64,000 bases of DNA from Tateyamaria sp. syn59 (GTDB taxonomy: Bacteria > Pseudomonadota > Alphaproteobacteria > Rhodobacterales > Rhodobacteraceae): assembly GCF_007995245.1 (NCBI RefSeq), contig NZ_VCBA01000001.1, forward strand, positions 263,730-327,729, given 5' to 3'. The notes beneath the pieces were generated by a model. The model had not been told where the DNA came from. It saw nothing but the letters and a program-made list of their open reading frames with translations, and searched no databases. Positions 2,856-4,617 of this stretch are shown here, piece after piece. Every line of letters begins with the position of its first letter. The first letter of the stretch is position 1. The translations under genes and the position numbers were made by a program.

Positions 2856-2884
2856 TTGACTCTGCGAACGGTCACACGTATAAC
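2856..2884 (+). promoter_or_regulatory. Near-consensus sigma70 promoter for the GTA cluster
   Basis: TTGACT (-35, 2856-2861) and TATAAC (-10, 2879-2884) are separated by the optimal 17 bases. Transcription would start near 2891, about 100 bases before the g1 ATG. Such a strong match is surprising for a cluster that is normally silent in most cells, and suggests repression, or termination downstream, as the control step. Confidence 0.65.
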
Positions 2885-2909
2885 TTGTGACAAGCTAGAA
2901 GAAGTGGGC

Positions 2910-2943
2910 AAGCGGCCCCGGGGTGACCCGGTGGTCGCTTTTT
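2910..2943 (+). terminator. Intrinsic-terminator-like hairpin in the GTA leader
   Basis: The arm at 2910-2922 pairs with 2927-2940 (13 pairs including one G-U, with T2932 bulged) around a GTGA loop, which is a GNRA tetraloop. T residues run from 2939 to 2943, then CG, then TTT. It lies about 20-50 bases after the predicted start near 2891 and 50 bases before g1, so it would stop transcription from the strong promoter before the first gene. It could instead end the mltG transcript or make a short RNA of about 50 nt. Confidence 0.6.
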
Positions 2944-2993
2944 CGTTTCGCTCGTGCGGAGACAATCCCAACGCATGAGAGGTCATAACACAT

Positions 2994-3338
2994 ATGACAT
3001 TGATTACCCCGGAGGCGGAAGAGGCCCGCAGCGAGGAGCTTGTCTCTTCGATGCAGGACACTCTGAAGACGATGCGAAAGCAGTTCAAAGCCTTCATAGA
3101 AGAGGCTGGAGCCGGGGAGGATTTCAAGGAAACCGAGGTCAACAAGCAGCTTGCGGCCATGCTCCGCACAGTTGGCAACCTTGAAGGTATGGAGAAGAAG
3201 CTTGACGAGTTTCGACAAGCCCGGAGTGGCATTGCCCAAAACGGATACGCTCTCAACCTTGACTTCGCCCGAGCTGAGGTACGGTGCGCGCTTGGTCGCC
3301 TCCGCGCCTGTGGAGGCGCAGGAGCGGTTTCTGAATGA
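2994..3338 (+). CDS. GTA gp1, small terminase subunit
   Basis: This is a 114-residue mostly helical protein at the head of the GTA cluster. In RcGTA the g1 product is the small terminase that works with the large subunit during packaging of host DNA. The charged middle section (DTLKTMRKQFKAFIEEAG, then ETEVNKQLAAMLRTVGNLEGMEKKLDEF) and the end resembling DFARAEVRCALGRLRA fit that family as I remember it. The ATG at 2994 has a weak AGAGG about 10 bases upstream. The 3' end overlaps the probable start of g2 by about 100 bases in another frame. The assignment rests on position and general family resemblance. Confidence 0.75.
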   Translation: MTLITPEAEEARSEELVSSMQDTLKTMRKQFKAFIEEAGAGEDFKETEVNKQLAAMLRTVGNLEGMEKKLDEFRQARSGIAQNGYALNLDFARAEVRCALGRLRACGGAGAVSE

Positions 3339-4617
3339 GTTGGGAGAGGGCGCCATTGGCGCCCTCCCTTTTCTGTTCGAGTTCTGGGCCATGGAGCACC
3401 AGTTGCCGCCCGAGAGCGATTGGCGGACCTGGGTCATCATGGGCGGACGTGGGGCGGGCAAGACCCGTGCGGGTGCCGAATGGGTGCGATCAATGGTCGA
3501 GGGGCCGATGCCGCTGGACAAGGGTCGCGCGCGCCGTGTGGCGCTGGTGGGGGAGACAATCGAGCAGGTCCGGGAGGTGATGGTCTTTGGCGAGAGCGGG
3601 ATCGTGGCGTGTAGTCCGACGGACAGGCGCCCCAAGTTTCATGCGGGGCGGAAGATGCTGGAGTGGCCCAACGGGGCTGTCGCCACCATTCATACCGCCT
3701 TTGACCCGGAAGGTTTGCGGGGGCCGCAGTTCGATTGCGCCTGGGTCGATGAGCTTGCCAAGTGGAAGAAGGGTCAGGAGACCTGGGACATGCTGCAATT
3801 CGCGTTGCGGCTGGGCGACGATCCGCGCTGTTGTGTGACGACGACGCCCCGCAACGTGGATGTTTTGAAGGATTTGCTGGCGCAGTCATCCACCGTGATG
3901 ACCCACGCGCCGACCGAGGCGAATGCCGCCAACCTGGCGGGCTCGTTCTTGAAGGAGGTGCGCCGCCGTTATGCCGGGACGCGGCTGGGGCGGCAGGAGT
4001 TGGAAGGGATCCTGCTCACGGACGTCGATGGGGCGTTCTGGTCCACCGCGATGCTGGATGCGGTGCGGCGGAAGCGGAAACCGAAGCTGGATCGCGTTGT
4101 GGTCGGGCTGGACCCTGCTGTGAGTGCGGGGCGCTCCTCTGACGCCTGCGGCATCATCGTCGCGGGGGTGTCGATGGACGGGCCGCCGCAGGATTGGCGG
4201 GCGCATGTCATTGCCGATTGCACCGTGCAGGGTGTGGGGCCGAGTGGGTGGGCCAAAGCCGCGATTGATGCGATGGACACGTACAAGGCCGACCGGTTGG
4301 TGGCCGAGGTGAACCAGGGCGGGCAGTTGGTATCGGAGGTGATCCGGCAGGTGGATCCGCTGGTGTCGTTGAAGACTGTGCATGCCTCTAAGGGCAAGGT
4401 GGCGCGGGCGGAGCCGATTGCGGCGCTGTATGAGCAGGATCGGGTGACGCACGCCCTTGGCCTTGGCGATCTTGAGGATCAGATGACGCGGATGACGCGC
4501 ACCGGGTATGAGGGTGAGGGATCGCCTGACCGGGTCGACGCGCTGGTGTGGGCGTTGCATGAGTTGATGATTGAGCCTGCGAATGCGTATCGGCGGCCGG
4601 GGGTGAGGCGTTTGTGA
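3232..4617 (+). CDS. GTA gp2, large terminase subunit (ATPase-nuclease)
   Basis: This is the motor that translocates host DNA into GTA heads and cuts it once they are full. From a TTG start at 3232 it has 461 residues. Walker A is GGRGAGKT at about residues 71-78, Walker B is FDCAWVDE at about 168-175, and the C-terminal RNase H-like nuclease begins near VVVGLDPAVSAG at about 289. No ATG exists near the conserved beginning (TSPELRYGARL). TTG at 3232 has GGAG 5 bases upstream; GTG at 3226 is the alternative. The gene overlaps the end of g1 in another frame. The terminase family is certain, the start is not. Confidence 0.92.
   Translation: MPKTDTLSTLTSPELRYGARLVASAPVEAQERFLNELGEGAIGALPFLFEFWAMEHQLPPESDWRTWVIMGGRGAGKTRAGAEWVRSMVEGPMPLDKGRARRVALVGETIEQVREVMVFGESGIVACSPTDRRPKFHAGRKMLEWPNGAVATIHTAFDPEGLRGPQFDCAWVDELAKWKKGQETWDMLQFALRLGDDPRCCVTTTPRNVDVLKDLLAQSSTVMTHAPTEANAANLAGSFLKEVRRRYAGTRLGRQELEGILLTDVDGAFWSTAMLDAVRRKRKPKLDRVVVGLDPAVSAGRSSDACGIIVAGVSMDGPPQDWRAHVIADCTVQGVGPSGWAKAAIDAMDTYKADRLVAEVNQGGQLVSEVIRQVDPLVSLKTVHASKGKVARAEPIAALYEQDRVTHALGLGDLEDQMTRMTRTGYEGEGSPDRVDALVWALHELMIEPANAYRRPGVRRL

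Follow-up and report, generated by a model that had tools for sequence, protein, structure and literature searches.

A terminator at a fixed distance from the GTA promoter in many genera suggests that GafA lets RNA polymerase run past it

The first gene of the GTA cluster in Tateyamaria sp. syn59 is preceded by a promoter and a terminator hairpin; across many genera such a terminator keeps the same spacing from the promoter, which suggests that GafA lets RNA polymerase run past it. The pairing of promoter and hairpin had been picked out by a first-pass annotation of the window, by which we mean the whole 64,000-nt stretch of DNA analysed; that observation is confirmed, is not due to chance, and is commoner than the window alone could reveal. 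Judging from sequence and by analogy, we consider it probable that a promoter-proximal intrinsic terminator is overcome by GafA acting as an antiterminator of the Q/GafZ type, which is the best explanation we have. The structure rests on conservation and covariation, and termination at it is predicted. GTA antitermination is already known; what is new is the presence of such a terminator in Rhodobacterales, together with its geometry and a further, outer helix that pairs the T tract.

The promoter elements, leader hairpins, and genes g1 and g2 all lie on the forward strand of the window. The −35 element TTGACT (2856..2861) and the −10 element TATAAC (2879..2884) are separated by 17 nt and read letter for letter as the sigma70 promoter first described, and spacing from the −10 element places the expected transcription start at 2891..2892 (2891 ± 1), about 103 bp before g1, in agreement with the earlier estimate of a start near 2891. 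A generic scan of the window omitted this promoter because its rule wants T as the last base of the −10 element. Between the two elements lies CGaaCGgT (CGNNCGNT, 2865..2872), a candidate GafA loading site in a position analogous to that of the GafZ-binding element, and the start and initially transcribed region are covered by the conserved sequence TTGTGACAAGCTAGAAGAAGTGGG (2885..2908).

The terminator hairpin (2910..2940), identified from its letters, folding, and covariation, begins some 20 nt downstream of the expected start and consists of 13 pairs, A2910-G2922 with C2927-T2940, around a GTGA loop with a single bulged T at 2932. Its T tract (2939..2943), five T only and then CG, includes T2940-T2942, which are at least 90% invariant in 131 loci. 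The stem is rich in G+C, the T tract stands immediately 3′ of it, and the whole is oriented with transcription, as in an intrinsic (Rho-independent) terminator; on the antisense strand the terminator finder gives none. The 111 nt from 2885 to 2995 fold at −47.4 kcal/mol (z −4.99), and none of 200 shuffles was equally stable. The 13 pairs, the GTGA loop, and the T tract ending at 2943 are thus as the first-pass annotation gave them, but the full extent of the structure is not, as GAAGTGGG and TTCGTTTC can lengthen it past the T tract. The generic scan lists the hairpin in a 9-pair version; over 20 kb it finds 30 terminator-like sites where 18.7 would be expected. By default, transcription would terminate near 2943, after a leader some 50 nt long; that most transcripts would stop there, as the first-pass annotation has it, is an expectation. 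The cluster opens with g1, or terS, a 114-amino acid ORF (2994..3338, ATG at 2994) that has similar ORFs in related loci and precedes g2, or terL (3325..4617, start approximate), part of which was used as a query. Near the terL start, another strong hairpin (3346-3366, 9 pairs in the scan) is followed by CCTTTTCT, and it could be a second early terminator or a chance structure in coding sequence.

Related loci were collected with the TerL query, which gave 80 named loci (the best 80 of 145, among which Tateyamaria sp. ANG-S1, with 99% TerL identity, is the closest named relative) and 130 genus-level loci. The latter are 130 of the 134 best-scoring loci among 263 genomes with a terL match, with G041, G061, G107, and G233 left out, and because they are the best-scoring part of those genomes close relatives are over-represented. 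The seed TTGAC[TAC]-N16-18-TA...GCT[AG]G was found in 154 of the 210 upstream regions, 131 of which, less than 93% alike, form the nonredundant set. Conservation of TTGAC, TA, and GCT[AG]G is uninformative because the seed demanded them. Outside the seed, in 97 loci of one length, positions 3 and 4 of the −10 element are T in 72 and A in 79; the spacer element holds its C in 87, G in 94, C in 90, G in 85, and T in 83; and TT.TG.CA on the 5′ side and AAGA..TG on the 3′ side of GCT are conserved. In every one of the 131 loci, GCT lies 36-39 nt from the −35 element. A conserved element within the −35/−10 spacer of the core promoter, here CGNNCGNT, is what antitermination of the Q/GafZ type would be expected to display. 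At about +6 to +11, TAGAAG resembles a −10 element, its second base being A (62/97) or G, the only bases that the seed admitted, and the conserved start region could serve a promoter-proximal pause as well. Close to the expected start, the three bases that directly precede CT[AG]G read ATG in 62 of the 131 loci and AAG in 47.

A terminator with a dG of −12 or below lay within the next 78 nt in 109 of the 131 promoter-seeded loci, compared with 27/655 dinucleotide shuffles, 14/331 windows upstream of the promoter, and 2/393 windows downstream, in the terS region. Without an energy threshold, any terminator-like hairpin was found in that interval in 114/131 loci, against 154/655 dinucleotide shuffles, 79/331 upstream windows, and 13/393 downstream windows of the terS region. 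The terminator is conserved at this position. In 103 of the 109 terminator-bearing loci, 41-49 nt separate the GCT anchor from the first TTT, and from the mltG stop to the −35 element the distance is 18-233 nt in the 88 of 131 loci where it was measurable; the terminator, fixed relative to the promoter and variable relative to mltG, therefore belongs to the promoter and not to mltG. Among the 130 genus-level loci, 73 combine the promoter pattern with a terminator, 10 have just a terminator, 19 just the promoter pattern, and 28 neither. A terminator between promoter and target genes, as would be anticipated for a Q/GafZ-type system, is accordingly found in the window, in the 109 seeded loci, and, with the anchored finder, in 83 of the 130 genus-level loci, 47 being without it. 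A terminator was looked for and none found in Salipiger (L065, L071, and L081), and that of Cognatishimia (L067) is weak. R. capsulatus is outside the sampled genomes (primer sequences from PMC6854486 used as probes matched no genome as R. capsulatus); one relative, L285, which is outside all counts, has a similar promoter and terminator.

Covariation was assessed in one alignment of 109 loci selected for the hairpin and another of 131 loci not so selected, though their seed includes GCT[AG]G. In the 131 unselected loci, all 13 stem pairs show both-sided changes, with 163 such cells against 56.8 ± 9.6 in shuffled alignments (0/500) and 37-53 when the 3′ partner was slid; the 109 hairpin-selected loci gave 124 cells against 38.5. 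The stem is thus kept by compensatory change, as expected of an intrinsic terminator, and the comparison with other Rhodobacterales that the first-pass annotation had proposed comes out in its favor. Beyond the stem, RNAalifold on the hairpin-selected loci added a set of G-U-rich pairs, an outer helix of GAAGTGGG (2901-2908) with TTCGTTTC (2942-2949), also seen in folding and covariation, which runs through and past the T tract. In the 131 unselected loci it has 32 both-sided cells against 12.4 ± 2.9 shuffled (0/500), and its covariation score is 0.309 where shuffles give 0.249 ± 0.009. Slid controls gave 18-33 both-sided cells with at most 65% paired, against 85% in register, and support for the helix is moderate because the slide by one column gives equal both-sided cells (33) but far fewer paired (47% against 85%). 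Pairs distal to the T tract can form only in transcripts extending past it, and in such read-through RNA the helix would enclose the T tract of the terminator.

A possible second leader hairpin, CTCGTGCG - loop - CGCATGAG (2951..2979, with 2951-2958 pairing 2972-2979), was recognized by recurrence and stem score, and its 3′ end overlaps GAGAGG (2977-2982), the likely terS ribosome-binding region. The pattern CTCGTGC...GCATGAG stands right before terS in 58/131 loci. A stem score of at least 19 was reached in 44/131 loci, 25/655 shuffles, and 31/262 downstream windows; a score of at least 14 is unspecific (95/131 loci, 190/655 shuffles, and 149/262 downstream windows). The model of this hairpin matched 32 of 90 supplied sources, and covariation in these 32 loci is modest, with 7 both-sided cells against 1.4 shuffled and 10 in one slid control. 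In Roseobacter-type loci such as L021, the stem pairs GAGAGG too, the likely terS ribosome-binding site. We treat this putative hairpin as a lead of moderate standing and not as a result.

The host genome encodes a GafA that matches PF20057 (DUF6456) over residues 234-370 with 211.8 bits, and it therefore possesses a homolog of an antiterminator shown to act as such. Neither a CtrA-site pattern nor the DnaA C-terminal Pfam model led to GafA; the DUF6456 model found it. PF20057 matches occur in 269 and terL in 263 of the 295 sampled genomes of the family. In 128 of the 130 genus-level genomes (two without a GafA value were omitted), and with phylogeny not controlled, GafA scores were higher with a terminator (81 genomes) than without (47 genomes; Mann-Whitney p 6e-10). 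Terminator presence correlated with GafA score at a Spearman coefficient of 0.54 and with TerL rank at 0.34, and in partial rank correlations GafA retained 0.50 after TerL rank and TerL rank 0.25, phylogeny again not being controlled. Pairing is imperfect: of the 113 genomes whose GafA scored better, 36 had no terminator by this finder; of the 15 whose GafA scored low, 4 retain one; and in G114 (100% complete) and G196 (64%), which have both promoter and terminator, a PF20057 match was not found.

A covariance model returned the leader site of the host genome at E 2.6e-18, followed by a second-best match at E 0.0017. The other host-genome matches with E ≤ 1 are weak and the two inspected, including the one at E 0.0017, fall inside open coding frames, so further copies of the promoter-terminator element in this genome were rejected; a single strong site is in keeping with GafZ's single target. 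The exact string GCTAGAAGAAGTGGG occurs once in the host genome, and none of the seven two-mismatch sites inspected there has such a promoter. Among 289 genomes of the class, with strict filters, 24 match at E ≤ 0.01; the two strong matches (E 2.6e-18 and 2.0e-14) belong to the window's own family, and the best outside it, at E 8e-5, is partial, covering the stem only and without the conserved start region. In G055 (L276, 617-686 and downstream), a GTA remnant whose terL frame enters the sequence of a later gene still has an intact promoter and terminator. Distant GafA homologs with 23-26% identity at 92% coverage are encoded by the Roseobacter phages RDJL Phi 1 (gp38; L284, 19983-20915) and Phi 2; gp38 adjoins a gene annotated ctrA, and the 40.9 kb scanned of RDJL Phi 1 contain one promoter-plus-terminator candidate. 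The record MW462191.1 (L282 and L283), filed as "Bacteriophage sp.," resembles a piece of bacterial chromosome with a GTA, where a sulfur-acceptor gene has a split, gafYZ-like pair next to it. In L282, whose GTA is apparently of another order, the promoter region reads TTGACT-17-TAGGGT, and an intrinsic terminator was looked for and none was seen.

Late promoters of lambdoid phages (Q, tR′) combine a constitutive-looking promoter, an overlapping element, and an early terminator before the late genes, and Q is a loading factor encoded elsewhere. The window is alike in the look of its promoter, the promoter-overlapping element, the early terminator, and the separately encoded factor; it differs in that GafA has no match among PDB sequences up to E 1, and a sigma-dependent pause is here only a candidate feature. 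Another parallel is the Caulobacter GTA, where GafZ requires an element in the −35/−10 interval, permits read-through of terGTA and rrnB T1, has one target promoter, and has been proposed to work with polymerase and Nus factors; that account reports neither omega enrichment with GafZ nor resemblance of GafZ to Q or AlpA (PMC11150451). GafA corresponds to GafY plus GafZ, and the same authors suggested that R. capsulatus GafA might possess unrecognized antitermination activity (PMC11150451). Shared with Caulobacter PgtaT/GafYZ/terGTA are a homologous regulator, a regulatory element within the −35/−10 spacer of the core promoter, a terminator that polymerase must pass, and one antiterminated promoter per genome (PMC11150451). 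The differences are that terGTA, located behind the first gene, consists of three GC-rich repeats of 150 bp, whereas the window has a single intrinsic terminator 20-50 nt past the expected start and before the first gene; that the spacer motif CGNNCGNT differs from the Caulobacter palindrome; and that read-through is demonstrated for the Caulobacter GTA (PMC11150451), whereas in the window it is a prediction.

In R. capsulatus, transcription starts within 76-125 bp upstream of g1 (PMC6363796), and GafA, described as an activator, binds with its C-terminal part the 76-125 bp upstream fragment holding promoter and start and with its central region omega (PMC9638019 and PMC6363796). The conserved spacer and start region of our loci coincides with this binding region and with the position of the GafZ element, which by analogy would support antitermination by GafA. 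In the forms available, the word "terminator" is absent from the main text of PMC9638019 and PMC6363796, "termination" from PMC9638019, and "hairpin" from PMC6363796, and a literature search, with subscription papers mostly outside its coverage, returned no report of a terminator at a Rhodobacterales g1 promoter. The earlier statement that no GTA attenuator had been published holds within that search for the Rhodobacterales g1 promoter and fails more generally, a terminator with antitermination having been described in Caulobacter (PMC11150451) and antitermination in Bartonella BaGTA (Korotaev et al. 2025, eLife RP105142, as cited by PMC13236601), the latter likeness resting on the paper's title.

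We propose that the hairpin would cut GTA transcripts by default to the short leader, and that GafA would be brought to this promoter by an element that overlaps the −35/−10 spacer, the −10 element, and the start region. GafA would then load onto the early elongating polymerase and make it resistant to the terminator, so that the whole GTA cluster is transcribed; it would be a processive antiterminator as well as an activator, and the same terminator may also block stray transcription arriving from upstream mltG. An antitermination role for GafA, raised in the first-pass annotation, appears to be the most economical explanation because homology, promoter anatomy, and co-occurrence point to it, and GafA-dependent read-through would follow by analogy. 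A bistable-switch design, also suggested at first pass, would be compatible with the positive autoregulation of GafA (PMC6363796); both the design and its proposed link to the small fraction of GTA-producing cells are conjectural. Counting against this explanation are the genus-level loci without a terminator, the different placement of the terminator in Caulobacter, and the absence of omega enrichment with GafZ there (PMC11150451), as well as the imperfect pairing of GafA with the terminator and the GTA of L282, which has −35 and −10 elements and no intrinsic terminator seen.

Some of the same facts would suit a GafA that acts at initiation only, recruiting polymerase via omega, with the terminator a passive, leaky brake on basal expression: GafA binds the promoter, contacts omega, and is described as an activator (PMC9638019 and PMC6363796), the T tract is just five T, and the terminator is missing from 36 of the 113 genomes whose GafA scores better. 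We think this unlikely in view of the read-through of terGTA and rrnB T1 by GafZ, which is homologous to the C-terminal part of GafA (PMC11150451), the fixed promoter-terminator distance with compensatory stem changes, and the tracking of GafA score by terminator presence, phylogeny not controlled. The hairpin might instead insulate the lethal GTA cluster against read-through from mltG and be unconnected with the GTA promoter, a reading encouraged by the presence of a separate strong terminator between mltG and the promoter in only 17/88 loci. An insulator, however, would precede the promoter, whereas this hairpin lies past the expected start at a fixed distance from the promoter and a variable one from mltG, and the window already has another, weaker terminator-like structure before the promoter (about 2705-2745, dG −15.1); we rate insulation as distinctly improbable. 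That structure contains the GATTTGTCCCCGCGGGGACA palindrome, and the palindromic piece (about 2709-2737) recurs at four other places in the host genome with 93-100% identity and is possibly a dispersed repeat.

Conservation at the 5′ end followed by a terminator is also the typical pattern of a small RNA, and the promoter could yield a regulatory RNA of about 50 nt ending at the hairpin, but nontranscribed promoter positions are conserved too, as is the read-through leader right before g1, and we give this very little credence. Least credible of all is a classical attenuator working through a leader peptide or a ligand-sensing antiterminator hairpin. The synonymous fraction does peak in frame 0 of the 5′ arm (0.32, with 0.17 and 0.27 in the other frames), and MLEEVGKRPR can be read in some loci; the start triplet, however, is ATG in 62 and AAG in 47 of 131 loci, stops come early, and ORF length varies, so a conserved translated leader ORF was rejected. 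The consensus fold of 109 loci, itself a weak test, contains no antiterminator that would compete, and of six Rfam matches up to E 5 none overlaps 2856-2993 and none attains its gathering score. A broader form of antitermination by GafA, in which it would be a lambda-Q-type antiterminator via omega, the T tract would be paired by the covarying outer helix, and a second foldable element would lie by the terS ribosome-binding site, together a layered early-elongation lock from an ancestral phage, is a tentative idea that we rate slightly less likely than not.

GafA has so far been taken to switch on the model GTA as an activator that contacts omega. A covarying terminator, fixed in place 20-50 nt past the promoter, turns the published speculation on GafA antitermination into a simple reporter question, and the terminator marks a control point directly before a lethal transcription program. 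If the proposal is true, GTA antitermination would be extended beyond Caulobacter, into the order that yielded the model GTA.
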